Source of the DNA: Mucilaginibacter pineti
GTDB taxonomy: Bacteria; Bacteroidota; Bacteroidia; Sphingobacteriales; Sphingobacteriaceae
DNA length: 64,000 nucleotides
Assembly: GCF_900101875.1 (NCBI RefSeq)
Contig: NZ_FNAI01000018.1
Location: 1 to 64,000 of the forward strand
Direction of reading: 5' to 3'
Both the position numbers and the translations under genes were made by a program. Positions 29,402 to 52,022 of this stretch are shown here, piece after piece (positions within the stretch are counted from its first letter, which is position 1; every line of letters begins with the position of its first letter). The notes beneath the pieces were generated by a model. It was not told the origin of the DNA. It searched no databases and saw only the letters and a list, made by a program, of their open reading frames with translations.

Positions 29402-29594
29402 TATTTCATCAACTGCACAAAAAAACACAAAAAAAACACAAAATTGTGTGGCAAAATCGTGGCAAAAACTATTTTAAAAAAAAATGCCACGATTGACAGC
29501 ATAACTCATTGATTATCAAGTTGTACACGAGATGAACATCTTGATTTCCGGTAATTGCATATCGACATTTATTCACTATTTAAATTTTGTCGTT

Positions 29595-30905
29595 ATGTTG
29601 GAAAAAAGCTTTGCATTGCTTTACTTTTTAAAGCAGTCAAAAACCGGGGGGAGTAAAAAGTATATTTATTTACGCATTACCGTTGATGGCCATCCCGTAG
29701 AGGTGTCAACCAAAAAACAGTGGTGGGAGAACCGCTGGGATCAGGAAAACGGGCGCGTCAGTGGCACCAAGCCCGATGCGCAGGAATTAAATTTTTTCCT
29801 GGGTACACTGGAAAATAAGGTATTTCAGGCCCGGAAAAAACTGATCGAAGACGACGAACTGATAACCGCAGAAGCCCTGCGGGATTTGGTAACCGGCAAG
29901 GATGCCCGTAAAATGATCCTGGAAGTGTTTGCCGATCATAACCGGCAAATGGAAGCCCTGGTAGGCAAGGATTATGCCGATGGTACACTGGAACGCTACA
30001 TCACTTCTTACGAACACACTAAAGCGTTTATACAGTGGCAATATCTGGCCGATGATCTGTACATCCGCAAACTGGATCACTTCTTCATCGAACAATATGC
30101 TTTCTGGTTAAAAACGGTAAGGAACTGTAATCACAACACGACCATGAAGTACCTGTCGAACTTCAAAAAGATCGTGCTGATCTGCGTGAAGAACAAGTGG
30201 TTGCCCGGCGATCCGTTCGCCAATTTTAAGATGACCAAAAAGACAGTCATCCGTGAACCGATATCAGAATGGGAACTGGAAGCTATGATCAGTAAAGATT
30301 TTGAAAACGACCGTCTGAACCATGTCCGCGATATTTTTGTATTCAGTTGCTATACAGGGTTGGCTTATGCGGATGTAAAAAAATTGAAGCGCTCCGAGAT
30401 CGAAAAAGGTGTAGATGGTGAACAATGGATATTCACACCCCGTCAGAAAACGGATGCACCCTGCTCGATCCCCTTGTTGCCGGTAGCACTACAATTACTG
30501 GGAAAATATGCCCATCATCCAAAATGCGTCAATCAGGACAGGGTATTACCAGTATTGACCAACCAGAAAATGAATGCCTACCTGAAGGAGATCGCGGATT
30601 TATGCGGTATCAAAAAGGTATTAACCTTCCACCTGGCAAGGCATACGTTCGCCACTACGATTACCCTGAGCAATGGTGTGCCGATAGAAACCGTATCTAA
30701 GATGCTCGGCCATAGCACTATCAAGCAAACCCAGCATTATGCGAAAATACTCCATATTAAAATTAGTGCAGATATGGCTTCTTTACGCGAAAAATATGCA
30801 GTTATCGCCCCTCAACCTGCAAAACAATATACTGAACTACAACTAGAACCAGTTAAGCAGTCTTCGCCGTTGCCTAAATATAATTACGTGTTCGTTGTTT
30901 CATAA
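29595..30905 (+). CDS. Tyrosine recombinase / integrase
   Basis: A 436-residue site-specific recombinase of the Bacteroidetes integrative-element type. It has an N-terminal arm-binding domain, a SAM-like core-binding domain (about 100-190) and a catalytic domain with H-L-A-R-H-T-F-A, G-H-S-T-I and the nucleophile in T-Q-H-Y-A-K. The first catalytic Arg is replaced (T-G-L-A-Y-A-D), as in several Bacteroidetes integrases such as IntDOT. The start M-L-E-K-S-F (29595) is preferred to an upstream ATG at 29532. It probably integrates the element carrying the Ubl and tra genes. Confidence 0.88.
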   Translation: MLEKSFALLYFLKQSKTGGSKKYIYLRITVDGHPVEVSTKKQWWENRWDQENGRVSGTKPDAQELNFFLGTLENKVFQARKKLIEDDELITAEALRDLVTGKDARKMILEVFADHNRQMEALVGKDYADGTLERYITSYEHTKAFIQWQYLADDLYIRKLDHFFIEQYAFWLKTVRNCNHNTTMKYLSNFKKIVLICVKNKWLPGDPFANFKMTKKTVIREPISEWELEAMISKDFENDRLNHVRDIFVFSCYTGLAYADVKKLKRSEIEKGVDGEQWIFTPRQKTDAPCSIPLLPVALQLLGKYAHHPKCVNQDRVLPVLTNQKMNAYLKEIADLCGIKKVLTFHLARHTFATTITLSNGVPIETVSKMLGHSTIKQTQHYAKILHIKISADMASLREKYAVIAPQPAKQYTELQLEPVKQSSPLPKYNYVFVVS

Positions 30906-31218: not shown

Positions 31219-31602
31219 TCAAAAATGAAACGTAACTAATTTTCGCAAGAGTGATGATAATGAAATCCGTTGCTTTCTTTTGTGGGTCGATTTGTCTTTT
31301 AATTTATTAAAAATTGGTTTAGTAGCTGTAATCTCATCTGACCAACTCACATCCCATTTAATGTTATTGTTAACAATCCAATAGTGCGATTTGCAATCGA
31401 AGTTCCAATTACCTATTGATGGGGATAGAGAAATTGATTCGCCATTGAAATTAAGTTTCCAATCTTTTGGAGATAATGGCGTAACAACTTTACTACCACA
31501 TCCACAAGCACATCGATGTATAGCGGTGGCATATTCCATAGAAATATAAAGAACACCGTCTTCGATCTCCTTTGGCATCAATTCTACGAAATTAAGCTTC
31601 AT
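31219..31602 (-). CDS. DUF6527 zinc-binding protein of Ubl operon
   Basis: A 127-residue protein with a Cys cluster H-R-C-A-C-G-C-G (C31, C33, C35) and a second ligand pair N-F-D-C-K-S-H (C70, H73), fitting a zinc ribbon, then a tail of basic residues. DUF6527 genes sit next to E1-like and multiubiquitin genes in many Bacteroidota. The start at M-K-L-N-F-V (31602) overlaps the E1 stop by 11 nt; upstream in-frame ATGs reach 31629. Its role is uncertain: a protease-like, E3-like or scaffold part has been considered for such partners, but nothing here decides it. Confidence 0.7.
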
Positions 31603-32776
31603 GGTCTTCATTGAGTAACTGGCTTTCATTTATGGTATAAGTTGTGTGATTCTCTTTTTCCGCATCGTGATATACCCCGAAAATTTTCTTCCATTTAATA
31701 ATGGCAAAGCTCGCATTGATTGCATTTAACTCTGCGATTTGAATGTTTTTGGCGTAGTCATTATTGTTATCGTCCACAAATGATATACGATTATTAGTTC
31801 TTACGTGATCCCTTTTATTTTCTGTGCTGGTAGTAGTTCTAACAACGCCGATCAATTGGTCACGTACAATTTGCACCCCAATACCGACATCAATAAACGG
31901 TATCTGATTTGATTCCAAAAAATCGATGATTGGCTCTTTTGCCTTGCTATCATCGATAGAAATGAAAACGAAGCTTTTACCGGTAAGTTCGCCAACGTTT
32001 TCCTCTGTTATGCTATAGGCATGCGGAACAATATTACTATGCATATTTCGATAGATACCAGCGAGATATTCAACCTTTGGAAGGCGTTCTCTCAATTGCG
32101 CTATTGAAGGCGCACCAGGGGCGCGAAATGCATTATGTTGTAAAAACACATCGCTGTCATAAATATCGATCTGCACCACCGGGGTTTTTGCAATGAAATC
32201 AAGTATATACGCGCCAGTACCCCCGCCCCCAATAATCACAACTTTCAAATTTTTCAGTTTGTCACTAATCGGTGATATTTCAGCACGAGACGAATTTGTA
32301 TCATAATAGTTAAAGACCGAATACTCGTCTTCGGTTTCGATGACTTTATAGGTTTTCTCATTCGCCCACGGATCTATTGCTTTTGCCTCCGAGCTTAGAA
32401 TATTTATGTAGGTAACCATCTTTTGAAAATAATCATCATAATAACCGACATCTGGCTTACTCGAAAAAGTAAGATTGATTGTGATTTTGTCATGCAATTT
32501 TTGAGGGGCGGTACCAATAATGATCGCATTGATGGCCCGCCCATCCCGATGATGTGGGGTTTCTCCAATAAAGGTTGTCACGTGAGTACCAGGCCGAACG
32601 GTTAGGTCTCCTGCCAAGTCTAACGTTGAGACCAGAGTTCCGTATTTAACCGTTAACTCATTGGCTAAATACGGAATATGGTGTATCATTAGAAACGCAT
32701 CTACTATCTCAATCTCATAACCCTCATCCCATAATTGCCTTAAATCGGGGTTAGGATTTATTAGTTTGTGTGGCAT
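31592..32776 (-). CDS. ThiF/E1-like activating enzyme with DUF6791 N-terminus
   Basis: A 394-residue protein. The N-terminal half (1-165) matches a DUF6791-type region; the ThiF-like adenylation domain follows from about 172, with G-G-G-G-T-G-A, an Asp-ending strand (D-I-Y-D-S-D) and N-A-F-R-A-P. No cysteine occurs anywhere in the protein, so it cannot make an E1 thioester; it should adenylate the Ubl and pass it on without a Cys intermediate, or use another protein. It overlaps the Ubl gene by 26 nt. It is the core of the conjugation-like operon. Confidence 0.8.
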
Positions 32777-33161
32777 TGAATCTCATTTTATCTTGAACTT
32801 TAACAACTTGCCCGCTGATCATGGAGCCTTCAGGATTTTCTTTCGGGCCCTTTTTATAAGTTACGGTATATGCTTTGGTGCCATTTTCTATCATCGAACC
32901 AAAAGCCAATTCAATAACCTTTTTAAAACTGATTTCCCGCTCGTGATAATCCTTTTCCTCAGCATTGACTATGATTGTAAAATCACAACGGCTGTGCTCC
33001 AGTTCCTCAGCTTTTTCTTCCAGGTATTCAATTTCCTTTTTTTCGTGCTGAATCTGCTTTTCTTCAAATTCAATTTCAGACTTCTCGTGTTGAATTTCTT
33101 CCTTTAAGTGTGCCAACTCCTCCTTGAAGTTTTCATCATTGCATTGCTCTTTATTTTCCAT
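32751..33161 (-). CDS. Multiubiquitin-family Ubl protein with N-terminal coiled coil
   Basis: A 136-residue protein. Residues 1-55 are a charged coiled coil (K-E-E-I-Q-H-E-K repeats); residues 58-134 are one ubiquitin-like multiubiquitin domain (F-T-I-I-V-N-A, E-I-S-F-K-K-V-I-E-L-A-F-G, Y-T-V-T-Y-K-K-G-P, N-P-E-G-S-M, F-N-A-T-Q-T). The C-terminus ends N-K-S, without a Gly-Gly tail, so processing or a non-standard attachment is implied. It is first in the operon and divergent from the sigma-like gene of triad 2. Confidence 0.8.
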   Translation of the reverse strand: MENKEQCNDENFKEELAHLKEEIQHEKSEIEFEEKQIQHEKKEIEYLEEKAEELEHSRCDFTIIVNAEEKDYHEREISFKKVIELAFGSMIENGTKAYTVTYKKGPKENPEGSMISGQVVKVQDKMRFNATQTNKS

Positions 33162-33210
33162 GATCTCAAATGGGGTTTGTTATTTGCCCCGTCACAATAA
33201 TTAAGTATGA

Positions 33211-33236
33211 ACCGTGACAAGTTCATTTGTCACGGT
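33211..33236. promoter_or_regulatory. Dyad between Ubl operon and triad 2
   Basis: Perfect 10-bp arms, ACCGTGACAA (33211-33220) and TTGTCACGGT (33227-33236), have a 6-nt loop. A further GTCACAA half-site is at 33191. The dyad centre is about 44 bp from the sigma-like start and 62 bp from the Ubl start, similar geometry to the dyad at 8684-8741. Confidence 0.6.
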
Positions 33237-33267
33237 CTTTTCTTATATTAGTAGAAACCTAATTATA

Positions 33268-33936
33268 ATGGAGATAATAAAAAGGGATACCCCTTTACCA
33301 ATGATTTCCGAAACGGATGAAGACTTGCTGGTAATCATGTCAATGAAAGATGATGAGAATGCTTGTAATAGTGCGTTTTCAGAGTTTCACCGAAGATATA
33401 AGGACCTGCTTTATTACATGGTCGGCGGAGTTTGTTCATCACATCCCAATAGTAGAGAACTGACCAAGGTGATTTTCAATAACGTTATGTTGAACGTTTA
33501 TCAATACTGTCATACATTCACCTGTGAGGGGCAAACCGACCCAGAAAAGGTAAAAAAATCTATATTAAGTTGGTTAGCAACAATAGCCAGGAATGAATAT
33601 AAAGCGCAATTCAAAAAACCTGAAAAAAGAGATGCGGAACGGTCTGCCTTCAAAACAATGGTAAAGTCTTCCCTGGGAAAACCCCAATATTCTTATTCGG
33701 AAGACCTGATTGAAAAAGCATATGCGCAAATTCCAAAAGAAAGAGATCGAGATATTTTGAGAACATATTGGGTGTTTTATGAAAAGGGAGAGAAATCACA
33801 AGCGAAAAATCTACCTGACGATGTGCTTGATGATCTTTCAGTTCGTTATAATACGTCGCGGGATAACATACGCACTATTATTTCCCGCACCAATAGAATA
33901 GTTAAAACATTCCTGGAAACCAACTACAAACAGTAA
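33268..33936 (+). CDS. Sigma-70/ECF-like protein (triad 2)
   Basis: A 222-residue protein from the start at 33268. Region-2-like helices (A-C-N-S-A-F-S-E-F-H-R-R-Y-K-D-L-L then W-L-A-T-I-A-R-N-E-Y) and a C-terminal region-4-like HTH (L-S-V-R-Y-N-T-S-R-D-N-I-R-T-I-I-S-R) are clear. It opens the operon sigma / small / ImmA and faces the Ubl operon across a dyad. An upstream in-frame ATG at 33214 would start inside the dyad and is unlikely. Gene order matches triad 1, but the sequence is divergent. Confidence 0.75.
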   Translation: MEIIKRDTPLPMISETDEDLLVIMSMKDDENACNSAFSEFHRRYKDLLYYMVGGVCSSHPNSRELTKVIFNNVMLNVYQYCHTFTCEGQTDPEKVKKSILSWLATIARNEYKAQFKKPEKRDAERSAFKTMVKSSLGKPQYSYSEDLIEKAYAQIPKERDRDILRTYWVFYEKGEKSQAKNLPDDVLDDLSVRYNTSRDNIRTIISRTNRIVKTFLETNYKQ

Positions 33937-33941
33937 ACCTC

Positions 33942-34307
33942 ATGTATCCTATCAATAACGACAATATTAACGAGAGGGAAGATCCTGAATTTGATCATTC
34001 ATTATATGAATCGTTGAAAAAAGCTGGTTACGCTTTCCCTGAAAATGAAGAAGATATCGAGCGGCTATTGGACAATTTCAAAAAAGCAAAATGTGTCGCA
34101 CCTGCAGATTTCGATAACCCGCTAACAATCCTTAAAGATGGCTTTTTGTCTGTTACCGCAGATTTCAATACTTCAAGAGATGATGAGATCGACGCAAATT
34201 TAGCACAAGCAGCAAGAGAGGGCGGCTCAATAGAGGAAGACGTCGATTCACAAATGAAAAAAGACAGAAAGGCCGCGGAAGATGAGCGAAGGAATAGTAA
34301 AGATTAG
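33942..34307 (+). CDS. Small acidic protein between sigma-like and ImmA genes (triad 2)
   Basis: A 121-residue acidic protein with an N-terminal D/E/N-rich tail, a helical middle (Y-E-S-L-K-K-A-G-Y, I-E-R-L-L-D-N-F-K-K) and a charged C-terminus (M-K-K-D-R-K-A-A-E-D-E-R). No family is recognised. It starts 5 bp after the sigma-like gene and its end overlaps the protease gene by 26 nt. Candidate anti-sigma or protease substrate, by position only. Confidence 0.6.
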   Translation: MYPINNDNINEREDPEFDHSLYESLKKAGYAFPENEEDIERLLDNFKKAKCVAPADFDNPLTILKDGFLSVTADFNTSRDDEIDANLAQAAREGGSIEEDVDSQMKKDRKAAEDERRNSKD

Positions 34308-35124
34308 CGAAGACCGACTATTAGCATATCGGAAAGCAGAAATAGCAGAGTTGGCTGAGGCAATCGCACTGCGCTTTTACAATGGGAGCATTATACATCC
34401 GGAATTAATCGCCAAAGAGCAAGGCATCACATTTTCATATAACAATTACAAGGATAGTTTTGACGGACTACTCGAACACCATTCAGGACGCTTCCATATA
34501 TACATTAATTTAAATCGTCTCCGTGGTGAAAACAATCCGCGTATTCGATATACTTTCGCCCATGAACTTGGACATTATTTTATTGATGAACATCGAAATG
34601 CATTAAAGAGTGGCAAAACCCCATCCCACCCATCGTTTAATGGTCTTGTAGCAAAAAACCCGGTAGAGCGCGAGGCCGACTATTTCGCATCTTGCCTATT
34701 AATGCCTGAAAAGTTATTTAGAAAACAGTGTTTCAGGCGCCCTCTTGATCCCAAATTGTTTGAAGACCTCGCGAAATACTTTGAAACAAGCATATCTTCG
34801 GTGATCTTTAGGTATTTCGAACTCAACTTATTTCCTATGCTAATTATTAAGGTGATAAATGGGCTGATTGATTGGAAAATGCCCTCAAAGGATTTTAAAT
34901 ACAAATATCTGCCAAAAAAAGGGGCACCTGTTCCGCCGACAACCGCTGCTGGGGAATATTTTAATATCGGTAAAAAATACCTTGAGAAACAATTGCTTTG
35001 GCCTGATGACTGGTTCAAAGACTTCAATATTAGTAAAGATGAGCAGCTTTTCGAAAAATGCTATTACTTATCTGAAACTTCAGTAATGAGCGTAATATGG
35101 AAAAGGGAGAAAGGTATGAGATGA
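34282..35124 (+). CDS. ImmA/IrrE-family metallo-endopeptidase (triad 2)
   Basis: A 280-residue protein with the zinc motif H-E-L-G-H at residues 94-98 and the third ligand in V-E-R-E-A-D-Y-F-A (about 131), then the family signature L-L-M-P. It ends with an extra domain (about 200-280) not seen in minimal ImmA proteins. As in triad 1 there is no XRE repressor next to it. A role as stress- or infection-triggered protease acting on its operon partners is inferred. Confidence 0.85.
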   Translation: MSEGIVKISEDRLLAYRKAEIAELAEAIALRFYNGSIIHPELIAKEQGITFSYNNYKDSFDGLLEHHSGRFHIYINLNRLRGENNPRIRYTFAHELGHYFIDEHRNALKSGKTPSHPSFNGLVAKNPVEREADYFASCLLMPEKLFRKQCFRRPLDPKLFEDLAKYFETSISSVIFRYFELNLFPMLIIKVINGLIDWKMPSKDFKYKYLPKKGAPVPPTTAAGEYFNIGKKYLEKQLLWPDDWFKDFNISKDEQLFEKCYYLSETSVMSVIWKREKGMR

Positions 35125-35240: not shown

Positions 35241-36374
35241 ATGGACGACGATTTTTTCAAAGAGCAGACACTTTCGTCTGAAGTTAAGGCGAATATTGTC
35301 GCCGAATACTTTCCTCAATATTGCAGGATATTGTTGAAAAAGCAACAAAATTCAGTGCGCTACTTGGATTTATTTGCAGGTCCGGGTAAATATGAAGATC
35401 AAAAACATTCAACTCCGTTATTGTTGGCCCAACTTTGTGCCGAAGACCCTTTACTTTGTGAAAAAGCACACCTGATTTTCAACGACAAGAATTACGCAAA
35501 AGAATTAGAGAAGAACTTCAAAGCGCTATTTCCAGACGACACTTTTAAATTCAAGCCAAGATTCGGCGATCGATCCGTTGGCGAGGATGACTCGATTAAG
35601 GCTTTTTTAAACCGGGAACCAAAACGAAATAATCCTAATCCAACTTTGTTGTTTTTTGACCCCTTTGGTTACAAGGGAATAGACACACTTATTTTAGCGA
35701 AATTTCTTCAAAATTGGGGAAATGAGCTTTTTCTTTTTGTTAATATTAAAAGGATAAATCAAGCTATTGCAGTAGGTAAATTTGATGAAATGATGAAAGC
35801 ACTTTTTCCCACATCGATAGAGAAATTGAGGAAGGAAAGGCAATATTCTGCATCGTCGGTTCAGGATCGATTGAAGTTAATTATCGCCAACCTGGCTGGC
35901 GAATTTGTTAGCGCAGTTGGCAGTAATAAACTTTATCATTGTGCCTTTCGTTTTCAAGAAGAAGATAGCACTGCGACAAGTCATTACATAATACATTTTA
36001 CCAAGAATGAACGAGGATATGAACTCGTAAAAAATGTATATCATAGCTATGATAATATTGGTGCTACCCTTGATAGGGACGGCAATTATACATTTGACGC
36101 AAAAAAAACGGACTCTACCACTGGGCTAGATTTTGGAAATGAGAATATCAAAGCATTGTCACGACTAATAGCCGAACGCTATAAAGGCCAGCAATGGACG
36201 GCGAAAGCGTTGTACGAAGACCATCAGAAAGACTCGAAATTCAGCTGGTCACATTACACCGATACACTTCGTTATATGATCGTCGAGGGAATGGCGGATG
36301 CGAGATTCACTGATACTGTAAATCATAAATATTCCGTTATTATATCGGAAACCTGTATCTTAAATATAAAATAA
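35241..36374 (+). CDS. tcmP: Three-Cys-motif partner protein TcmP
   Basis: A 377-residue protein with the TcmP pattern: Y-L-D-L-F-A-G-P-G at about 40 (SAM-binding-like Rossmann motif), L-L-F-F-D-P-F-G-Y-K-G (about 132-142) and a C-terminal winged-helix-like region. TcmP is regularly next to a radical-SAM-like three-Cys protein, as it is here (the next ATG follows its stop with no gap). It starts a tight five-gene operon. The nucleic-acid or nucleotide modification it performs is not known. Confidence 0.85.
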   Translation: MDDDFFKEQTLSSEVKANIVAEYFPQYCRILLKKQQNSVRYLDLFAGPGKYEDQKHSTPLLLAQLCAEDPLLCEKAHLIFNDKNYAKELEKNFKALFPDDTFKFKPRFGDRSVGEDDSIKAFLNREPKRNNPNPTLLFFDPFGYKGIDTLILAKFLQNWGNELFLFVNIKRINQAIAVGKFDEMMKALFPTSIEKLRKERQYSASSVQDRLKLIIANLAGEFVSAVGSNKLYHCAFRFQEEDSTATSHYIIHFTKNERGYELVKNVYHSYDNIGATLDRDGNYTFDAKKTDSTTGLDFGNENIKALSRLIAERYKGQQWTAKALYEDHQKDSKFSWSHYTDTLRYMIVEGMADARFTDTVNHKYSVIISETCILNIK

Positions 36375-37109
36375 ATGGCGACATCATCGATTGAGTGGAC
36401 GGAAATGACATGGAACCCTACTGTCGGGTGTACAAAAATCTCAGCAGGTTGTAAGTTTTGTTATGCAGAAGTTATGTCTAAACGCCTTCGAGGCATGGGA
36501 CAAGAAAAATACCAGTATGATTTTAGGGTAGTAAAACCCCATCCTGCTTCACTAAATATTCCTTACACCTGGAAAACTTCTAAGGTTGTGTTCGTTAATT
36601 CTATGAGTGATTTATTTCACGAAGACATTCCTGAAGAATACATAAAAGCTGTTTTTAGTGTTATGAATGATAATCCCCAACATGTTTTTCAAGTACTTAC
36701 TAAGAGGGCTGAAAGGTTGTTTTCAATGCACAAAAAATTGAAATGGACGCATAATATATGGATGGGGGTTTCCGTCGAAAATTATGAGTTAATTGGGAGG
36801 ATTGACTGTTTGAGAAAGACTTCTGCTAAAGTGAAATTCCTTTCTTTGGAGCCTCTTATTGGTCCTATTCCAAACATGAATCTTAAAAAAATTGATTGGG
36901 CGATTGTGGGTGGGGAAAGTGGACATCGACCGCGTCCAATGAAGGTTGATTGGGTTTTGGAAATCCAAGATCAATGCGCAAAGGCGGGCGTCGCATTCTT
37001 TTTTAAACAATGGGGCGGTAAAAATAAAAAAGCTGCTGGTAGGATCTTAAACGGCAGGACTTATGATGAAATGCCAGAAATCGTTGAATTAGGAAGAGAT
37101 TTTCAATAG
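36375..37109 (+). CDS. Three-Cys-motif (Gp37/Gp68, DUF5131) radical-SAM-like protein
   Basis: A 244-residue protein carrying C-x6-C-x2-C (C19, C26, C29: V-G-C-T-K-I-S-A-G-C-K-F-C-Y), expected to hold an iron-sulfur cluster, plus the family motifs F-V-N-S-M-S-D-L-F-H, T-K-R-A-E-R and L-S-L-E-P-L-I-G-P. It is found in phages and islands with TcmP. Substrate is unknown; paired with TcmP it may modify RNA or DNA. Confidence 0.85.
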   Translation: MATSSIEWTEMTWNPTVGCTKISAGCKFCYAEVMSKRLRGMGQEKYQYDFRVVKPHPASLNIPYTWKTSKVVFVNSMSDLFHEDIPEEYIKAVFSVMNDNPQHVFQVLTKRAERLFSMHKKLKWTHNIWMGVSVENYELIGRIDCLRKTSAKVKFLSLEPLIGPIPNMNLKKIDWAIVGGESGHRPRPMKVDWVLEIQDQCAKAGVAFFFKQWGGKNKKAAGRILNGRTYDEMPEIVELGRDFQ

Positions 37110-37145
37110 TTAATTTGATCTAAGGGACGGCGATTTAAGTCATTT

Positions 37146-37727
37146 TTGATATCGAAAATATTATCTTTGGTTATGGCAGGGAAAGTACTTTATACGATCG
37201 GTTATGGCTCTAGAGATTTTGAAAAATTTTTAGAATTATTGGTACGGTATGAAATTAAGTTTCTTATTGATGTTAGAACATCCCCCTATTCAAAAATGAA
37301 TCCTCCTTTCAATAAAGAAAATCTAGATATTAAGCTTAAGGAAAATAAGATTAAGTATGTTTTTATGGGCGACTCTTTAGGCGGTAGGCCCAGAGATTTA
37401 TCATGTTATGACGAAGAAGGGAAAGTAGATTATGATGTGATCAAAACTAGAAAGTTTTTTTTAGAAGGAATTGACCGGTTAAAAACAGCCTATTCAAAAA
37501 AAATTAAAGTCGCACTAATGTGTAGTGAGGGGAAACCATCTGATTGCCATAGAAGTAAATTGATCGGCTCCTTTTTGCATGCTGAGAAAATTGAAATTGA
37601 ACATATAGATGAGAATGGAAATCTTAAAGATCAAGCGACAGTAATTAATGAAGTCACTAAGGGTCTTAATACTACTGATTTGTTCGGTAACCCTACTGGT
37701 CTAACATCTCGAAAAGCTTATCAATAA
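37146..37727 (+). CDS. DUF488 protein (copy 1)
   Basis: A 193-residue protein with the DUF488 hallmarks: T-I-G-Y-G-S at the N-terminus, L-I-D-V-R-T-S-P-Y-S, and A-L-M-C-S-E-G-K-P-S-D-C-H-R near the C-terminus (conserved Cys and His). An internal ATG at 37173 (M-A-G-K-V-L-Y-T-I-G-Y) is the likelier start. DUF488 proteins are predicted nucleic-acid-acting enzymes. It is followed within 1 bp by a divergent DUF488 paralogue. Confidence 0.8.
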   Translation: MISKILSLVMAGKVLYTIGYGSRDFEKFLELLVRYEIKFLIDVRTSPYSKMNPPFNKENLDIKLKENKIKYVFMGDSLGGRPRDLSCYDEEGKVDYDVIKTRKFFLEGIDRLKTAYSKKIKVALMCSEGKPSDCHRSKLIGSFLHAEKIEIEHIDENGNLKDQATVINEVTKGLNTTDLFGNPTGLTSRKAYQ

Positions 37728-37728
37728 A

Positions 37729-38211
37729 ATGGATTTTTTTACAATAGGTGTCTTCAACACCATCGAGCAGGTATTTTTCAATAAACTTATCGACAATAAC
37801 ATTGATACGTTTTGCGATATTAGGCAAAGGCGTGCGGTACGCGGTGCCAAATATGCGTTTGTAAATAGTACGCGATTACAAGACAAGTTAAGGACGCTCG
37901 GTATTAAATATGTTTATGTAAAAGAATTGGCTCCCACCGCCGAAATAAGAAGTATTCAGAAGGCTATCGATCAGAAGAAAAATGAATTAAAAACTCAACG
38001 GCAAGAATTGGGCGAAGCGTTTGCCAGTTCTTATAATGGTCTAATTTTAGATAAATTTGATTTCCAGCAATTGTTTGCACATTTCCAAGCATTGGGATCT
38101 CAACGTGTCGTATTATTCTGCGTTGAGGAAAAAGCAAAAGCTTGCCACCGATCTTTAGTAGCAAGTAAGTTATTACAACTTTATAATCAGGATGCTATTA
38201 AGGACCTCTAA
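37729..38211 (+). CDS. DUF488 protein (copy 2, divergent)
   Basis: A 160-residue paralogue: F-F-T-I-G-V-F at the start, D-I-R-Q-R-R and V-V-L-F-C-V-E-E-K-A-K-A-C-H-R at the end, so the Cys and His of DUF488 are kept while the N-terminus differs (G-V-F in place of G-Y-G-S). Two different DUF488 genes in one operon suggest a heterodimer or two substrates. Confidence 0.75.
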   Translation: MDFFTIGVFNTIEQVFFNKLIDNNIDTFCDIRQRRAVRGAKYAFVNSTRLQDKLRTLGIKYVYVKELAPTAEIRSIQKAIDQKKNELKTQRQELGEAFASSYNGLILDKFDFQQLFAHFQALGSQRVVLFCVEEKAKACHRSLVASKLLQLYNQDAIKDL

Positions 38212-38213
38212 TT

Positions 38214-38831
38214 ATGAAAACACTGATAGTTTCTAAAACACGCATGGTAAAAGGAGTTTGTGTAGGAGGATTGCTTTATGATGGCACTGGAATACGGCTT
38301 TTAGATATAAATGGCCATAATCAACCCAGCGACTGTCCTTATAATGTCGGTGAAATTTGGAATCTAACGTTTGATAAGAAAGCTGGACTTGTCGAGCCTC
38401 ATTTAGAAGATGTAATGGTCTCAAAAGGACTACTCCTAGGTAATGAAAAAAATTTACTAACAACGTTAACCGATTCAATTGCACCGGAAATATGGGATGG
38501 CCCACCTAATGTATTGTTTGACAGCCTAATCCAATGGACAGGCAACGGAAGCGGGTATGTTTGCAATCGAACTGGTGTACCGGATAAAAGTGTTGGCTTT
38601 TTTAGGTCTGCCTGGGATTTATCTTTAGATGCTGACGGCAAACACTATACCTTTCAAAATCCGAATCCATTTTATCCGCCAAAAAAATTAAGTTATGTTG
38701 GGCTTCAGACGGCCCTGCCATTAATTTTGCGCGGAACATTACTACGAGTATCTTTAGCAAGATGGTGGAAACCGGAGGATATAGAAATCGAAGAACGGTG
38801 CTACGCTCAATTATCGGGCTGGTATTTATAA
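38214..38831 (+). CDS. Dual OB-fold protein, last gene of the TcmP operon
   Basis: A 205-residue protein starting K-T-L-I-V-S-K-T-R-M, with features of the dual-OB family (G-I-R-L-L-D, Y-N-V-G-E-I-W, and a C-terminal W-W-K-P-E-D). OB folds commonly bind nucleic acid. It starts 2 bp after the second DUF488 gene, closing the operon. It probably provides target binding for the enzymes upstream. Confidence 0.7.
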   Translation: MKTLIVSKTRMVKGVCVGGLLYDGTGIRLLDINGHNQPSDCPYNVGEIWNLTFDKKAGLVEPHLEDVMVSKGLLLGNEKNLLTTLTDSIAPEIWDGPPNVLFDSLIQWTGNGSGYVCNRTGVPDKSVGFFRSAWDLSLDADGKHYTFQNPNPFYPPKKLSYVGLQTALPLILRGTLLRVSLARWWKPEDIEIEERCYAQLSGWYL

Positions 38832-40475: not shown

Positions 40476-40505
40476 TCCTAAACTGCGTTTACTTATTCAT
40501 GCCCG

Positions 40506-41423
40506 TTAGGACATGCGCATACGTTGACGTCTGGCCGGTTTGTCGTTCTGCTCGTTTTTTTGAGTCTTATTTTGATCCTGACTCGTTTGTTCTTTACCGG
40601 CCGACTGCCCCGGCTGATCATTAGCCTGGTTATTTTGTAATGGAACCACTTTGGCCCCGTCTGCTTTCTGGTCAAGACTGGTGTTTTGATTTTCGCCCTG
40701 TTCCTGTTTTTGCGCCTTTTGTACTTCGATCTTCTTAACTTCCAGGCGTTGGTTGTTGCTGTCGTAGAAATCAAAACCAGTCTGGCGGGGGTTTGCGGCC
40801 ATTGTTCCCTTAATTTCCTGGTCATCTTTAATGATGGTCACTCTGGTAACATTGCCTTTTTCTAATGAGGCCAGCAAACGGCGGTAGTCGTAAATATCTT
40901 CCAGTTCTTTGATCGGATAGTTTTTGATTTCCTTTTCATGGTTCCAGAACATCATCTTTGGTAAAAAATTACCGCGCTCATCTGTTTTCTTAAAGTCCAG
41001 CGCGCGCCAGGCCGTATAGGTTTCATCCGTAGCTTTAAACTTCCTGTCTTCGCCTTCACCTACAGGTATCAGTTTATTTAATTCCTTATACACGGCGCGG
41101 GAATCCAGCATATTATACCGCTCTTTCAGCGTATAGTTATTTTCCTTCCCAACGAAATAGGTTTGTTTCAAGGATTCTTCCGCGCCCGGCTGTTTCAGTT
41201 CCAGATCGAACTTTTTAAAGAAATACAAGTCCCCGCCATTGGATTTACCAAAATGCAGGGTATTGTTTAATTCGTCCTGCCCGTATTTAATTTGATGCGG
41301 CACGGTAAACTCGTCCTTACCTTTTGCCATCCCTTCTTGGATAGCTTTAGCAGGTTCCTCCCCGAAGCCCAGGAACATGGCCTGGTTTTTCAGGTAATCA
41401 TAATTTTTCATGTTAATTTCCAT
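40506..41423 (-). CDS. Hypothetical conjugative-element protein, disordered tail
   Basis: A 305-residue protein. The ordered part (1-235) has G-T-M-A-A-N-P-R-Q-T-G-F-D-F-Y-D-S-N, a motif of Bacteroidetes element proteins related to DUF3945-type sequences. The last 70 residues are Gln/Asn/Lys-rich and ordered only weakly. It probably has a cytoplasmic accessory role. M-K-N-Y-D-Y at 41411 is an alternative start. Confidence 0.65.
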   Translation of the reverse strand: MEINMKNYDYLKNQAMFLGFGEEPAKAIQEGMAKGKDEFTVPHQIKYGQDELNNTLHFGKSNGGDLYFFKKFDLELKQPGAEESLKQTYFVGKENNYTLKERYNMLDSRAVYKELNKLIPVGEGEDRKFKATDETYTAWRALDFKKTDERGNFLPKMMFWNHEKEIKNYPIKELEDIYDYRRLLASLEKGNVTRVTIIKDDQEIKGTMAANPRQTGFDFYDSNNQRLEVKKIEVQKAQKQEQGENQNTSLDQKADGAKVVPLQNNQANDQPGQSAGKEQTSQDQNKTQKNEQNDKPARRQRMRMS

Positions 41424-41457
41424 AGCAATTGAATTTTTAATGGTTAATCTTTCGTAA

Positions 41458-42363
41458 TTAAATTGATCGGGATAGGTTGATACTTTTCAGGTCTTCGGGC
41501 CTTGTTTCCTGTAGCCGGTCATTATAGAGCGTTAATTTTTCGCTCTCCGGGTCGAAACGCGCATACAGAAAATGCCGGATGCCTTTCGGTTCATCCAGCG
41601 TACTAATCTCCTGCACGTTCCAGATTTTGGCCTGCAGGTCGTTATCATATTGGTAATTGGCTGTTTTAAGCGTTAGGCCGCTGTAACTTTCCGGCCAGCC
41701 CTCCATATCCTGTACCACCTCACGGCCCTTATACTGGCCGATCAGCAGGTAATCGTTTTTATCGGTATTATCCGTGTATTGCCTGACCTGTTCCTTAAAG
41801 CATTTTTCAGCTTCCGCTAAGGAAGAAAAGGAACCCACGACACGGGTACTGTGGCCGATCTCATAAACCTGGTGCCCGGCGTGCCGGTGACCGATCACAT
41901 GGAACCGGTCAACTTCCTGTGCCGGGTCGATCAGTTTATTCCATTGTACAGGAAAAATAGTTTCAGCTTGCAGAAGCGGCAAAGCCTGCTCTGTGGTCTG
42001 TCCGGGTAAAAACTGAACTGACTGGCTGCTCATTGCCTCCTTTAATGAACCAAGCGGAAAATTAATTGTCGTAATCCCTTTGTCGGCATGATAAGCCTTT
42101 TGTAAAGCCTCGACCGGCATAAAGCGGTAGTCCAGGTATTCTTCCCTGACATCATAAGGGTCGTCCTCGTAAGGATAGGATCGGGACACGCCATTATCAT
42201 TGCAATAAGCCTGCGCTTTGTCAGCAGATATAAACCCCTCGAAATCCGGCGGTCGCTGATCTTCGTTAGGCCTTGTGCTGAAAGCCGTCCAATTCCAGCC
42301 CGATGCTCCGGCGTTTTGCAAAAAACGGGCGATATCCCGCTGGCTTGTTTCCTGAATTTCCAT
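41458..42363 (-). CDS. Hypothetical conjugative-element protein
   Basis: A 301-residue soluble protein with no recognised domain. It lies between TraM and the previous gene and is transcribed with them, starting with R-D-I-A-R-F-L-Q-N-A-G-A-S-G-W-N. TraN and TraO genes, normally next to TraM, are missing at this place, so it may have replaced them in position only. Confidence 0.6.
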   Translation of the reverse strand: MEIQETSQRDIARFLQNAGASGWNWTAFSTRPNEDQRPPDFEGFISADKAQAYCNDNGVSRSYPYEDDPYDVREEYLDYRFMPVEALQKAYHADKGITTINFPLGSLKEAMSSQSVQFLPGQTTEQALPLLQAETIFPVQWNKLIDPAQEVDRFHVIGHRHAGHQVYEIGHSTRVVGSFSSLAEAEKCFKEQVRQYTDNTDKNDYLLIGQYKGREVVQDMEGWPESYSGLTLKTANYQYDNDLQAKIWNVQEISTLDEPKGIRHFLYARFDPESEKLTLYNDRLQETRPEDLKSINLSRSI

Positions 42364-42374
42364 CTGATGAACCC

Positions 42375-43514
42375 TTATAACCTGACCTCTCTTAGTTTCT
42401 TATTATCGCGCAGCAAAAGGGGATGCCCGTCTTTAAGCTTGGCTTTAATGCGCTTGACCTTTTTGGTAAAAAGCCCTTTGGCCGCGTTTACCCCGGCCCC
42501 GGCGAGCTGCGCACTCATCGACGGGTCAAAGCTCATAAACTCCATTCCTTGTACACCACCGGCCGCGCCGTCTTTAACCGCATCGCCGGTAACGGCTTCC
42601 GGCACGCAAATTCCTTCCAGGCCGTCCGTCATGTCAAACACGGTCAGGTCTACCGGCAGGATCATCGTACCCATACGGATGATCTTGATATTCATGGTCA
42701 GCCGCTGGTTATACAATTCACCACTGCCATAGATCAATTGTCCTTTAGGGATCAGTTGGCCATTGATCGTTACCGTATCGAGGAGCTTCAGGCGTACGAC
42801 CGTGCCCTGCGTGATCTTTTGTTTGCCGTCGATCACGGCAGGTATAGCCTTAAAGCGTTTGTTTTCCAGTTCCTTAGCCTGCGGGTCGGTTTTTTCCGTT
42901 ACCCGGTCAGGATGCTGAATGTCCATGATCTTTTCAAGCAGGCCATTCATTTGCTTGAGTTCAGGATCTTCCGCCTTTTCCTGGGTTATCTGTTGCGATT
43001 TGCTGACCGCATCGTTAGTGTTGACAGAAGCGGCAGTACTGGTTTTGACTGGTTGCACAGGTTTGTTAATAGCCGTTTGCAATTGCGCCAGTTTCTGATA
43101 GACCTGCGCTTCATTGGCGCCCTGCGTATTACCGCCTGTCAATTTGGACGGTTGAATAGCGGCGCTATTCCGCCATGCAGGTTGTGCATTAGCAGAAAGC
43201 TGAAGACCGGCAGCGGAATCAGCAGCATGGTGGTAATAAGGATCACTTTTCATTTGTTCCTTTAGCTTCACCGAATCCGCAGCCGCTTTATCATAATAAC
43301 TGAGCTTGTTTAAGTCCTTGCCGCCTTTCAGCACGGCATCCGGCAGGTTCATGTTTAAACCTTTTGCGGTGTCGGCCTTGGCCTCAGCCGGGTTAACCTT
43401 ACCGCCGCCCAATGCCCAAAAGAACATCGTTAAAAAGGGCAATACGAGTAAGGGCAGCGCCAGCAATACTTTTCGCTGGCGAAGCATCTTTGAGGATAAT
43501 GTTTTCTTTTCCAT
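42375..43514 (-). CDS. traM: TraM conjugative transposon protein (VirB10-like)
   Basis: A 379-residue protein with a basic N-terminal tail, one membrane helix (about 16-34: L-L-A-L-P-L-L-V-L-P-F-L-T-M-F-F), an Ala/Gln-rich periplasmic linker and a C-terminal beta domain (from about 235: G-T-V-V-R-L-K-L-L-D-T-V-T-I-N-G, I-P-K-G-Q-L-I-Y-G-S-G), as in VirB10-type proteins. It bridges the inner membrane and the outer-membrane pore of the transfer channel. Confidence 0.85.
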   Translation of the reverse strand: MEKKTLSSKMLRQRKVLLALPLLVLPFLTMFFWALGGGKVNPAEAKADTAKGLNMNLPDAVLKGGKDLNKLSYYDKAAADSVKLKEQMKSDPYYHHAADSAAGLQLSANAQPAWRNSAAIQPSKLTGGNTQGANEAQVYQKLAQLQTAINKPVQPVKTSTAASVNTNDAVSKSQQITQEKAEDPELKQMNGLLEKIMDIQHPDRVTEKTDPQAKELENKRFKAIPAVIDGKQKITQGTVVRLKLLDTVTINGQLIPKGQLIYGSGELYNQRLTMNIKIIRMGTMILPVDLTVFDMTDGLEGICVPEAVTGDAVKDGAAGGVQGMEFMSFDPSMSAQLAGAGVNAAKGLFTKKVKRIKAKLKDGHPLLLRDNKKLREVRL

Positions 43515-43531
43515 AATTTTGATTTTTTATT

Positions 43532-44149
43532 TTAGTGATTGACCGTTTTTAAATCCTTATTTTCAAGCGTATTCCAGCGTTCTATGAGGAAGCCATGCGG
43601 GTTATTGTCGCTGCGGGACACATTCCGCAGGTCGCCCTCCGTCACCAGGCTTCGGGTAACGGTACTGGTCGTCCGGATAATGCTTTGAGTAGCGTAGCAA
43701 CGAAAATGATAGGGATAGCTCCGCAGGTCTACCGATACGCTGTCCACCCCAATCTGCTGGCTGATGTTCCCGGAGATGATATTGGCGTAATAGCCGTTTT
43801 CTGAGAGGTTATCGTATTCTCGTTTTGCCGAGCCATCCGCGAGATAAAGCGCTTTAGTTACATTGGCCTGTATGACTTTATCATCCGGTGCCAGCGTAAA
43901 AAATAGCTGGTGAAAGGTCTTGACATGATCCCTGGCCTCCACCGCTACGTTATCCTTACGGTCGGCGGCATAGGCTTCCAGCACTTTGCCGTTGTAAAGC
44001 ACATAAAGCCTGCTTTGGATCGTGGCGATCAAAGCCTTGTTCTGATATTCGATATAGCATATCGCTATAAAATAACCCACCGTCAGCACGATGACCAAAC
44101 CGCGCAAATGCTGAAAAGCGGTTTCTATATTTCGCATTTTTTTAAACAT
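43532..44149 (-). CDS. traK: TraK conjugative transposon protein (VirB8-like)
   Basis: A 205-residue protein with a short cytoplasmic N-terminus, one membrane helix (about 16-32) and a VirB8-like periplasmic domain (F-H-Q-L-F-F-T-L-A-P, A-L-Y-L-A-D-G-S-A, I-E-R-W). It forms part of the inner-membrane complex with TraM and TraJ. Confidence 0.85.
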   Translation of the reverse strand: MFKKMRNIETAFQHLRGLVIVLTVGYFIAICYIEYQNKALIATIQSRLYVLYNGKVLEAYAADRKDNVAVEARDHVKTFHQLFFTLAPDDKVIQANVTKALYLADGSAKREYDNLSENGYYANIISGNISQQIGVDSVSVDLRSYPYHFRCYATQSIIRTTSTVTRSLVTEGDLRNVSRSDNNPHGFLIERWNTLENKDLKTVNH

Positions 44150-44224
44150 AATTCCCTCCTGATCCCTTCCACTTTTGCGGAATACTTTTATAAATTGTTG
44201 ATTAATTCAATGACCTAATGCACG

Positions 44225-45367
44225 TCAAGACTTAGGGGGTGAACCGGACAGTTTACTTTGGTTAGCTGTGTTACCGCCATTGTTACCCGTGTTATTTTGT
44301 TGCGGGGGCTGGCTTTGCGTGTTACTTTTAGAAAAGCTCTGCATGATTGCGCCGCTGGCATAGGACATGGCCATAGAACCGAGGGCGCTCGTCTTGGCGA
44401 ACAGCGCATGGCCGCCCACATTCATGATATAGTTGGCGATGCTCGGCACGGTGAAATACCCGACGATACCGATCAGAAGAAAGATCAGGTAAGCCGTGTT
44501 ACTGTTTCCGAACTCGTTTCCCGGCAGGTTACCGCTTTGCGCCGCCGCGATCATATTCTCCTGTATCTTGGCGATGATCGCCCCGAAAATATTGGCGATA
44601 GGCAGCCACATAAAAACGTTGACATAGCGGGCCACCCATTGCTTCAGGGTATGCTGAAAGCCGTCGAAAATGCTGAGGCCAAAGCAGAGCGGGCCGAGAA
44701 TAGCCAGCACGATCAGCTTAAACGTGCGTATGGTATCGAGGCAGAGCGCCGCCGCCTGGAACAATACGTTCAGCACTTCAGCGATGAACTTGCGCGCCCA
44801 ATTCTTAATGCTCCAGCCCGAAAAGGCATCGGATATAGGATTGGTGTTCGTCGCGTTGGCTCCCGAATTATCCGGGTGACTGTACTGGTACCACTTGTCG
44901 GGGTCGGAATTGGTGGACGATGGTTCCTGCCCTTCAGTTGTGCTTTGTGGTTTGTCGGCCAGCATTCGCGCAATGGCCTGGTTAGAATTAGTGACCATGC
45001 CCTGCGTAGCGGTAACCACCGGCTGTAACAGGCCGTTAATCAGGCCCAGCACCAGCGGGAAGAACGCAATACAAAACCCGATAGCAAAAGGGCGCAGCAA
45101 CGGATAAATATCGACCGGCTCCGCCGCCGCGATATGTTTCCATATCCTGGCACTGATGTACCACAATGCCGCAAACCCGGCGATACCCCTGGCCACGCCG
45201 ATCATCCCGCTGCAAAGCGGCATCATCTGGTTGTACAGGTTTTCCAATATACCCTGCAAACTATGCAGATCATCCGCGATGCCGGTATCCTGCGCATGGG
45301 ACAGCAAGGGCAAAAGCGTGGCTAATGCTGCGAGTACCGCAGCCTTTGAAATGCTCTTTTTCATCAT
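44225..45367 (-). CDS. traJ: TraJ conjugative transposon protein (VirB6-like)
   Basis: A 380-residue protein with a signal-like N-terminus (A-A-V-L-A-A-L-A-T-L-L-P-L-L-S-H-A) and at least five membrane segments, with the conserved I-A-G-F-A-A-L-W-Y-I and L-L-R-P-F-A-I-G-F-C. The C-terminal tail is Gln/Asn-rich. It is the polytopic core of the transfer machine. Confidence 0.85.
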   Translation of the reverse strand: MMKKSISKAAVLAALATLLPLLSHAQDTGIADDLHSLQGILENLYNQMMPLCSGMIGVARGIAGFAALWYISARIWKHIAAAEPVDIYPLLRPFAIGFCIAFFPLVLGLINGLLQPVVTATQGMVTNSNQAIARMLADKPQSTTEGQEPSSTNSDPDKWYQYSHPDNSGANATNTNPISDAFSGWSIKNWARKFIAEVLNVLFQAAALCLDTIRTFKLIVLAILGPLCFGLSIFDGFQHTLKQWVARYVNVFMWLPIANIFGAIIAKIQENMIAAAQSGNLPGNEFGNSNTAYLIFLLIGIVGYFTVPSIANYIMNVGGHALFAKTSALGSMAMSYASGAIMQSFSKSNTQSQPPQQNNTGNNGGNTANQSKLSGSPPKS

Positions 45368-45371
45368 TAAA

Positions 45372-46025
45372 TCAGTTGATGCCGTATAAATTTTTGAGTG
45401 TTTGCCGGTCGTTGGTTTCTTTTGACCTTTGCAATGCCGTCCGGTACGCCTGGTCGTTAAAGCGCCTTAAAAAACTTAACTGGCTGTGGCTGTCGGTATA
45501 GATGCGGTCAATCGCGGCAAGCCGTTCGGCATCGCTCATCCGCATCTGGTTATCGGTCATCACCATTGCCAGGTCATCAAGATTTTTAAGACTGGCGCTG
45601 ATCAGATGATTATATACATCCATCATATAGCCGACCTCGTCCGGGTTAAAATGCTTATCCTGCCGGAAGGCAAAAGAAGCCGACTTATATTCGCTGATGA
45701 GCGAAGCCTGATCGCTGATAATGTCGGTGGCTCTCGGATATTTCCGCACGGTCGGACTAACGACCATCAGCCCGTCGAGAAAGGCCTCATGCAGACTGAA
45801 ATTGCCCTGTGATACGTCCTTTACCGAATTGTAACCCTTGCTCAACACCTCATAGCCCTGGTACATCTGCTGTAAAATGCTTTTCAGTCCCGCCAGTTTC
45901 TGATAATCCAGCGTCAGTTGCTGAATACAATCCGCGATGGACTGTGCCCGGCTGCGCACCGGCACCAGCATGGTCAGCGCGAGTATGATAACCATGCCTT
46001 TTACTAATCTTTTCATCCCTTTCAC
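45372..46025 (-). CDS. TraI-like secreted conjugation protein (paralogue 1)
   Basis: A 217-residue protein with a signal peptide (I-I-L-A-L-T-M-L-V-P-V-R-S-R-A) and an all-helical mature part ending in L-K-N-L-Y-G-I-N. It resembles the periplasmic TraI-type proteins that precede TraJ in Bacteroidetes conjugative elements. Two paralogues follow upstream with the same end motif. Confidence 0.7.
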   Translation of the reverse strand: MKGMKRLVKGMVIILALTMLVPVRSRAQSIADCIQQLTLDYQKLAGLKSILQQMYQGYEVLSKGYNSVKDVSQGNFSLHEAFLDGLMVVSPTVRKYPRATDIISDQASLISEYKSASFAFRQDKHFNPDEVGYMMDVYNHLISASLKNLDDLAMVMTDNQMRMSDAERLAAIDRIYTDSHSQLSFLRRFNDQAYRTALQRSKETNDRQTLKNLYGIN

Positions 46026-46047
46026 CTTTATCCTTTCTGCTTTTAGC

Positions 46048-46701: not shown

Positions 46702-46745
46702 TATTTTTAAGTTTAGAAATGCCTTTTGCCTTTTCAGCTTTTACC

Positions 46746-47426: not shown

Positions 47427-47812
47427 TAGATTTGGGTGTAGTGTTCCAGGATACGTTCATCCGCATCGTTATATATTTCCAGGCAAACTGACCGGTGCAA
47501 AGGATTAAACATCAGGTAGCAGGTGCCACGGCCCAGCGCGGTGAGATGACCGTTAAAATGCCAGCCATAGCTCGCCAGCCAGTTTTCCTCACGGCTGTAG
47601 ACGCCGCCATTGTAAAAGACCTGCGTGATCCGGAACAGGCTGCCATACGAACTAATGCCTAAAATCACCTTGCAAGGGCCGCCTTTTTCGTCAGCGTACT
47701 CACGCACATAAAGTTTCTTCATCGCCGCCAGGCTGTCCGCATGGTCACCCCAGTATTGTAAAACCGCACCAAGCGCCGCCCGCAGACGGCTGTATAAACT
47801 TTTCCTTTTCAT
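47426..47812 (-). CDS. Hypothetical protein in the tra operon
   Basis: A 128-residue protein with a possible weak N-terminal amphipathic helix (R-L-R-A-A-L-G-A-V-L-Q-Y-W-G) and beta-strand pattern in the centre. It overlaps the start of paralogue 3 and is 19 bp from the TraG stop. No family is recognised. Confidence 0.6.
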   Translation of the reverse strand: MKRKSLYSRLRAALGAVLQYWGDHADSLAAMKKLYVREYADEKGGPCKVILGISSYGSLFRITQVFYNGGVYSREENWLASYGWHFNGHLTALGRGTCYLMFNPLHRSVCLEIYNDADERILEHYTQI

Positions 47813-47831
47813 CTTTTCCTCCTCTTTATAG

Positions 47832-50282: not shown

Positions 50283-50328
50283 TGATCTTTTTCACGTTAT
50301 TGTTTGGTAATTCGCCCCTGATGCCGCT

Positions 50329-51987: not shown

Positions 51988-52022
51988 GATTCCGCACTTT
52001 TCTTTTCACTCTTGCTCTTTTG

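Follow-up and report, generated by a model that had tools for sequence, protein, structure and literature searches.

Two divergent triads in one window

We analysed a 64,000-nucleotide stretch of Mucilaginibacter pineti DNA (contig NZ_FNAI01000018.1, positions 1 to 64,000; hereafter the window), in which a three-gene unit, triad B (33268-35124; locus WINB in the comparisons below), encodes a sigma-like protein, a small protein and an ImmA-like peptidase and stands head to head with a ubiquitin-like (Ubl) operon. The three open reading frames (ORFs) were found where an initial annotation, made from the sequence alone, had placed them, and the identity of the facing operon is confirmed by Pfam for its Ubl, E1 and DUF6527 genes. 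The sigma start is read at the ATG at 33268 because a longer ORF beginning with GTG (33214) starts within the intervening dyad. The features of this region, including an extracytoplasmic function (ECF)-type sigma factor and a small protein without helix-turn-helix (HTH), are:

33268-33936, plus strand: ECF-type sigma factor of triad B, 222 amino acids (aa), region 2 and region 4
33942-34307, plus strand: small HTH-less protein of triad B, 121 aa, family of the PADLOC 'capH' model; proposed anti-sigma factor and CapP substrate
34282-35124, plus strand: CapP-type ImmA/IrrE zinc peptidase of triad B, 280 aa, overlapping the small gene by 26 bp
33211-33236, strandless: dyad B, ACCGTGACAA-gttcat-TTGTCACGGT, arms 33211-33220 and 33227-33236; read as two back-to-back -35 elements
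32751-33161, minus strand: multi-ubiquitin-domain Ubl protein, first gene facing triad B (Multi_ubiq PF14452, 6.1e-8)
31592-32776, minus strand: E1-like protein (DUF6791-ThiF) facing triad B (PF20590, 7e-53; PF00899, 1e-9)
31219-31629, minus strand: DUF6527 protein facing triad B (PF20137, 4.8e-26)

The same annotation had reported a second unit with identical gene order and a different partner. This is triad A (6885-8655; WINA), which indeed faces an operon of the pyrimidine cyclase system for antiphage resistance (Pycsar):

8050-8655, minus strand: sigma factor of triad A, in the sigma family profile A3 (NCBIfam sigma70-ECF 0.019 when searched alone)
7658-8053, minus strand: small protein of triad A, clade A, with C-terminal LQFNNLEKMDEQDLKEI resembling the canonical CapH C-terminus
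6885-7658, minus strand: CapP of triad A (PADLOC capP, 1.7e-64)
8684-8741, strandless: nested dyad A, outer TATGCTC/GAGCATA, inner GCCA-TGGC; 14/14 bipartite dyad, 0/200 shuffles
8764-9000, plus strand: DUF2188 protein, first gene facing triad A (PF09954, 1e-20)
8942-9493, plus strand: PycTM-like Pycsar effector facing triad A (PF18967, 5.9e-10)
9498-10517, plus strand: PycC-like nucleotide cyclase facing triad A (PF00211, 1.7e-4, slightly below the cut-off)
10501-11172, plus strand: SEC-C-tailed protein of the Pycsar operon facing triad A (PF02810, 3.9e-6)

From the observed gene content, homology, linkage, promoter-like symmetry and swaps described below, such a triad is probably a transferable switch, composed of a sigma factor, an anti-sigma factor and CapP, that controls the defence operon it faces.

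A sigma-linked CapP family and its partner operons

By sequence, the third gene of the triad is a member of the CapP family, with the full profile and the HExxH...E zinc site. CapP of triad B matches the PADLOC capP model (PDLC04141) at 2.8e-57 over positions 3-240 of 242, covering both the peptidase and the C-terminal domain, and its nearest solved structure by sequence is CapP itself (7t5t, 4.6e-9). HELGH and the downstream glutamate (E129) are unchanged across 8 homologues, and HExxH is present in 38/38 triad CapPs of the first set of loci introduced below (strict pattern in 37, HEIGH in L167). CapP relatives of 26-42% identity occur on viral contigs, and 69 plasmid records contain matches. 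The ImmA assignment of the initial annotation stands; it had stopped short of recognising this ImmA as CapP, the small family as the one labelled capH by PADLOC, and the dyad as best read as two divergent sigma promoters.

Profile and model evidence identifies the first gene as an ECF-type sigma factor with both region 2 and region 4, and binding to core polymerase and initiation of transcription are predicted. Among PDB entries, a family profile built from 38 relatives matches ECF SigH (5zx2, 4e-13) and sigma-E (1or7, 4e-10) along most of its length; a higher-ranked match, 8vd6 ('CAP REPEAT'), involves a short stretch only and was taken as spurious. In the AlphaFold model of sigma B (predicted local distance difference test score, pLDDT, 77; predicted template modelling score, pTM, 0.49), residues 14-122 resemble region 2 of ECF sigma factors (Z about 10) and residues 142-222 resemble region 4 (Z about 7), values that are middling for a helical protein. 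Searched on its own, sigma B has no significant Pfam match, and its best NCBIfam match (ECF sigma, 4e-4) does not pass the curated family cut-off. One sigma protein of the survey (L183, 457 aa) carries, by eye, an apparent second region-4-like stretch at its C-terminus.

The small protein of triad B matches the PADLOC capH model weakly (3e-4), and a clade-B relative from L155 matches it at 8e-19 over nearly its full length, for which reason the model appears to have been built on the HTH-less small family. No HTH was found by Pfam in either window small protein, canonical CapH having an XRE-type HTH at its N-terminus. Since the small protein has no detected HTH, something other than this protein should contact DNA. 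HTH_3 matches 11 of 49 proteins in a set made up of 38 small proteins and 11 canonical CapHs, a count that comes from a result table without member names.

Two clades of triads can be told apart. In clade A the sigma factor has about 190-205 aa in most loci and the small protein ends in a FRNLEKLDEEDLREI-like motif, whereas in clade B, which includes triad B, the sigma factor mostly has 210-300 aa and the small protein carries AARxGxxIPxxI. The clade-A motif FRNLEKLDEEDLREI resembles FFRKFNKLDPDDKKKI in the C-terminal domain of CapH (hhalign of the C-termini, P 5e-4, probability 32%; whole proteins, P 0.0048, probability 7%), and the small protein of L176 has an intermediate-looking form of it.

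Loci were collected with the PADLOC capP model from sets of genomes at the level of class (198 genomes, E≤1e-15, 29 with a match), phylum (395 genomes, E≤1e-30, 36 with a match) and order (201 genomes, E≤1e-40, 15 with a match) and from the order of genome G372 (196 genomes, 7 with a match), all of these sets overlapping. A scan of genome contigs returned 80 loci, with high-scoring CapPs in L067-L077. Sixty-one loci in Bacteroidota and relatives combine sigma factor, small protein and CapP, namely the first set of 38 together with L148, L069, L170, L173, L175, L176, L178, L180, L181, L183 and L271-L283; L069 is truncated by a contig end, and L270 was excluded as a copy of L070. The small gene lies within 20 bp of capP in 38/38 first-set loci, overlapping or abutting it in 33, and does not adjoin it in L173, L175, L176, L181 and L183, where the gap before capP is 128-381 bp in four loci and 1,168 bp in one.

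With profiles of the small protein and the sigma factor that were trained on 38 of the counted loci, 135 CapP-like loci divide into 59 with small protein and sigma factor, 42 with an HTH regulator (37 separate, 5 fused) and 34 with neither small protein nor HTH. By profile, the sigma factor is found in all 59 small-protein loci, in none of the 42 HTH-regulator loci and in 2 of the 34 others. It is present in 61 of the 62 loci whose CapP score is at least 130, and a recount of these 61 with the same profiles at a laxer cut-off finds the small protein in every one. The simplest account is that the sigma factor does the DNA-facing job instead of the HTH of CapH, which would leave the small protein to serve as inhibitor and substrate. 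CapH and CapP were reportedly described by Lau et al. in 2022 as an XRE repressor and an ImmA/IrrE peptidase activated by single-stranded DNA (ssDNA), and a protein upstream of CapP in L083 matches 7t5u and 7t5v, which we take to be CapH structures.

This linkage bears on the possibility that the triad is ordinary, already described CapH and CapP regulation that happens to stand beside an unrelated sigma gene. PADLOC does label the two smaller genes capH and capP, and the available text of PMC13373217 already places CapH and CapP beside Bub, Pycsar and cyclic oligonucleotide-based antiphage signalling system (CBASS) operons; with a sigma factor in 61/62 high-scoring CapP loci and in 0/42 HTH loci, we nevertheless regard an unrelated neighbour as extremely unlikely, and favour a sigma factor that belongs to the switch.

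The divergent genes at the 61 loci are those of CBASS, with its cGAS/DncV-like nucleotidyltransferase (CD-NTase), in 23 cases, E1/Ubl in 15, Pycsar in 3 and others in 13, and 7 loci have none or lie at a contig edge; later loci took their partner class from phmmer similarity (1e-4) to first-set members already identified. A divergent operon is present at 54 loci and belongs to CBASS, E1/Ubl or Pycsar at 41 of them, or at 36 of 49 once the close copies L275/L277/L278/L279 and WINA/L074/L272 are collapsed; the search key behind these figures, PADLOC capP, may be biased towards CBASS neighbours by its training set. BilD matches occur in two of the 15 E1/Ubl operons, and the other partners include an operon with a KAP-ATPase and a trypsin-like gene (L147). 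A control set of 111 proteins, drawn from 20 further stretches in these genomes, yielded 0 cyclase and 0 E1-E2 matches, and 1 or 2 matches for each of 11 other PADLOC models; among the facing genes, single models reach up to 13/111 (cyclase) and up to 10/111 (E1-E2). The enrichment beside defence genes on which the initial annotation had staked its proposal is thus borne out, at 41/54 against 0 cyclase and 0 E1-E2 matches in the 111 controls.

Cassette exchange and the shared promoter region

DNA comparison of loci anchored on the sigma gene (blastn, ≤5 kb upstream, ≤3.5 kb downstream, E≤1e-20) shows real swapping, both of cassettes across operons and of operons across cassettes, in agreement with the portable control cassette that had been suggested from the two window units. 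L071 (E1) and L153 (CBASS) share 96.6% identity over 1,878 bp that comprise the triad and about 105 bp of promoter region (-106 to +1771 relative to the sigma start); nothing further matches, the L071 contig stopping about 950 bp past CapP. Triad B (E1/Ubl) and L067 (CBASS) are 67.7% identical over 1,928 bp, the match ending at the promoter region, and WINA/L074/L272 (Pycsar) match L157 (CBASS) at 68-69%, beginning at about -90 (-124 for L272) and reaching about +1780. In the other direction, the CBASS operons of L157 (clade A) and L274 (clade B) are 72.8% identical from -4299 to -108, and their triads are unmatched; a common operon is likewise joined to cassettes of different clades in L271 (A) with L281 and L282 (B) and in L075 (A) with L148 (B), and to different cassettes within clade B in L067 with L276 and in L068 with L273 and L280. 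In both directions the joints lie at the promoter region. These swaps are the strongest evidence of the portability of the cassette.

The position of the joints also speaks to a stand-alone stress-response or toxin-antitoxin-like module that would merely ride in defence islands and leave the facing operon alone. Such a module would suit the 13 of 54 facing operons that are not recognised defence genes, the TnsB-type transposase operon opposite L168, and the 7 of 61 loci that have no divergent operon or lie at a contig edge. The head-to-head layout, the common promoter-like region and the swap breakpoints in that very region argue against it, however, and we consider it very unlikely beside a triad that controls its facing operon.

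In this region, dyad B is a perfect inverted repeat of 10+10 bp, a score of 10/10 being reached in 0/200 dinucleotide shuffles of the region (p=0.005). The distance between its centre and the start codon is about 44 bp for the sigma gene and about 62 bp for the Ubl gene, as in the initial annotation (44-62 bp from both starts). TTGTCACGG has no further occurrence within the 64 kb window. ECF promoters have a gap of about 16 bp between their hexamers, and outward transcription puts the -35 element inside and the -10 element outside. In clade A, a one-strand motif model gave TATGCTC-N14-TTTGCCA, the reverse complement of TGGCAAA-N14-GAGCATA, and when the opposite strand was scored a second motif copy appeared in many loci. 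The element is bipartite, with a -35-like TGGCRAA inside and a -10-like GAGCATA outside; 83% of the weight falls on an internal gap of 14 bp, and the span between copies is mostly about 54-64 bp and reaches about 94. Nested dyad A can be read in the same terms, as two outward promoters TGGCRAA-N14-GAGCATA with a common centre.

Tested against shuffles, the bipartite dyad of clade A has a Fisher p of 1.5e-4 over 16 loci (4/16 at 0.05) and of 0.0018 over 9 held-out loci (3/9), and the simple dyad of clade B has a Fisher p of 9.5e-6 over 16 loci (6/16 at 0.05). From these tests the near copies L074, L157, L076, L071 and L162 as well as L151 were excluded, and the related WINB and L067 were both kept. 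What stands out in clade B is the -35-like dyad: inverted TTGTCAC pairs occur in WINB, L067, L068, L152 and L276, and in L070 with mismatches in one arm; a sister group within clade B has AACGGTTT, and the held-out clade B regions contain, by eye, shorter or imperfect pairs. The spacer between the clade B arms varies, being 1 bp in L153, 6 in WINB and about 18 in L152, and the half that faces the sigma gene lies 29-41 bp upstream of the start codon in 11/12 loci with the two main motifs, the starts of WINB, L067 and L068 having been re-read at a downstream ATG for this distance.

The motifs cluster on the sigma tree. Four motif classes, covering 28/53 rows, need 3 changes, the minimum, compared with 9 for operon type on those rows; because these classes were assigned partly by pattern and partly by eye with the clade known, and hence not blind, we relied on blind word counts. 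On a sigma tree from which the near copies L071, L162, L076, L279, L277 and L275 had been dropped, AACGGTTT and GAGCATA change 2 times each and TGGC[AGT]AA 7 times (0/200 shuffles as low for each), and TTGTCACG changes 4 times (5/200 shuffles as low). Judged from these patterns, the dyad resembles a single sigma promoter present in two copies that face outward, most clearly in clade A.

The existence of a dyad is also what one would expect if the triad were a split CapH repressor, in which a DNA-binding subunit derived from a sigma factor and a small dimerising co-repressor block both promoters at the dyad until cleavage by CapP derepresses them. Canonical CapH and CapP form a repressor system according to the available text of PMC13373217, and the clade-A small proteins carry a CapH-like C-terminal motif. 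Against this stand the retention of both sigma regions by the first gene and a geometry unlike that of a rigid dimer operator, with a nearly fixed two-box spacing and a variable half-site distance in clade A and an arm spacer that ranges from 1 to about 18 bp in clade B. We therefore rate a split repressor as unlikely, and prefer promoters recognised by the sigma factor itself.

A proposed sigma-release switch and known relatives

In the mechanism that we propose, the small protein, which has no CapH HTH, would act as an anti-sigma factor and hold the ECF sigma factor inactive. CapP, activated by ssDNA if it behaves like its family, would cleave the small protein and free the sigma factor, which would then fire two divergent promoters with a common centre, one driving the sigma factor's own operon, in positive feedback, and the other driving the facing defence operon. 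A block of about 1.9 kb could be put before different operons in this way because sigma factor, inhibitor, sensor-protease and two-way promoter travel together. With a little more reserve than for the switch as such, we also lean towards the fuller picture in which CapP of Bacteroidota, activated by DNA damage, acts through an anti-sigma factor and not a repressor, the ECF sigma factor fires a symmetric two-way promoter, and the whole is a plug-in 1.9 kb switch that brings its own promoter code and moves between CBASS, Ubl-conjugation, Pycsar and unknown systems.

A number of results weigh against this interpretation. The putative ssDNA trigger is carried over to the triad from the CapP family. 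No fold or homology marks the small protein as an anti-sigma factor: its structural model is poor (pLDDT 66, pTM 0.26), and profile searches against the PDB returned nothing credible. Profile comparison finds no homology between the small A and small B families, nor between small B and canonical CapH (C-termini, P 0.12), which makes the notion of one substrate family weak for clade B. As these small-family profiles did not match and a search of the genome with sigma B did not retrieve sigma A (E≤10), triads A and B are old, divergent versions and not products of a recent duplication. For the sigma factor, the model of sigma B has no Foldseek match at E≤0.001, the best 17 rows (E 0.005 to 0.06) all being sigma factors, and Pfam Sigma70_r2 matches only 8/38 sigma proteins individually (at 0.01).

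Among the promoter results, the simple-dyad test failed in clade A (Fisher 0.67, 1/16; held-out 0.19), the bipartite test failed in clade B (Fisher 0.57, 1/16), and 0/10 held-out clade B regions passed either dyad test. A whole-arm palindrome test was modest, with 12/38 loci at ≤5 of 100 shuffles; it was too blunt, and the bipartite and short-dyad tests were therefore used instead. Leave-one-out motif fitting by expectation maximisation in clade A reached p≤0.05 on both strands in 3/19 loci and on each strand alone in 6/19, and, with its unstable register, was not used as main evidence. Operon type needs at least 14 changes among 48 rows of the sigma tree compared with a shuffled mean of 24; because the changes are fewer than in the shuffles, operons seem to stay with a cassette lineage for a while and then change.

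Both halves of the proposed mechanism have precedents, a CapP controller and an immune switch of protease and anti-sigma factor each being already known. As far as the available text of PMC13373217 goes, the DNA-binding repressor CapH is cleaved by ssDNA-activated CapP. The triad resembles CapH and CapP in its full-profile CapP, its CBASS, Pycsar and Ubl neighbours, a small gene just before capP and, in clade A, an apparently shared short C-terminal motif, and differs from it in a small protein without detectable HTH, an added sigma gene and, where CapH and CapP have a repressor operator, divergent elements that resemble promoters. In the Calp system of type III CRISPR (CalpL-CalpT-CalpS), a protease cuts the anti-sigma factor CalpT and frees CalpS, according to the accessible portion of PMC12751052, so that a sigma factor is released in an antiviral response much as we propose for the triad. 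There, however, CalpL is a Lon-SAVED protease triggered by cyclic tetra-adenylate (cA4), whereas the triad protease is a CapP zincin (Peptidase_M78/CapP by Pfam and PADLOC, and not Lon-SAVED) and the triad is a movable upstream controller. CapK with CapS and CapW/BrxR, in the part of PMC13373217 that is available, are also small, ssDNA-responsive regulatory modules near many immune operons, but they are kinase/STAS or WYL proteins, and the window triad proteins have no kinase/STAS or WYL match in Pfam. PprI/IrrE-DdrO, as presented in the accessible text of PMC10904395, has an ssDNA-sensing metallopeptidase of the ImmA/IrrE kind, like CapP, the substrate of which is a repressor and not an anti-sigma factor.

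Our literature search, whose coverage mostly leaves out subscription papers and preprints, found no paper on a sigma-CapP triad. Since CapH and CapP beside Bub, CBASS and Pycsar are already published, what is new here is confined to the sigma factor, the two-way promoter, the survey of loci and the swaps. To the open question of how toxic immune operons are silenced, a sigma/anti-sigma version, if true, would add positive feedback, that is, a switch instead of mere release, and a promoter of its own that would explain how a single controller serves unrelated effectors. For annotation, a PADLOC 'capH' match in Bacteroidota may turn out to be a protein that has no HTH and is accompanied by a sigma factor, and as a search key the triad points to the genes opposite it as candidate defence systems.

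Several partner operons are of interest in their own right. One or two short genes precede a recurrent gene of 227-231 aa in L165, L176, L179, L181 and L182; the L165 copy has no Pfam or PADLOC match, and operons with this gene are a candidate new defence system. A protein of 57-65 aa is the first facing gene in L070, L077, L153 and L164, in CBASS and unrecognised operons alike. The triad opposite the TnsB-type transposase in L168 belongs to clade A, and this arrangement is possibly one of DNA-damage-controlled transposition. In L067, the stretch at 9221-12356, downstream of the cassette that resembles triad B, contains genes that by eye resemble SIR2 and a short Argonaute.

Within the window, at 12816-14857 and shortly beyond the Pycsar operon, the gene of a TIR-STING effector (CAP12 TIR, 2e-26; prok_STING, 1.5e-32) comes after one that is nucleotidyltransferase-like (NTP_transf_2, 1e-4), and the pair is probably a CBASS operon. 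Triad B has a tyrosine integrase at 29532-30905 on one side and, at about 40500-54500 on the other, a long series of genes that look, by eye from the ORF lists, like conjugative-transfer genes; an integrative conjugative element thus appears to carry it as cargo. Immediately 3' of CapP B, at 35241-38831, are genes for a 377-aa protein (GMT-like winged HTH, just below the cut-off), a DUF5131 protein and two consecutive DUF488 proteins, which may form a further defence or stress operon.

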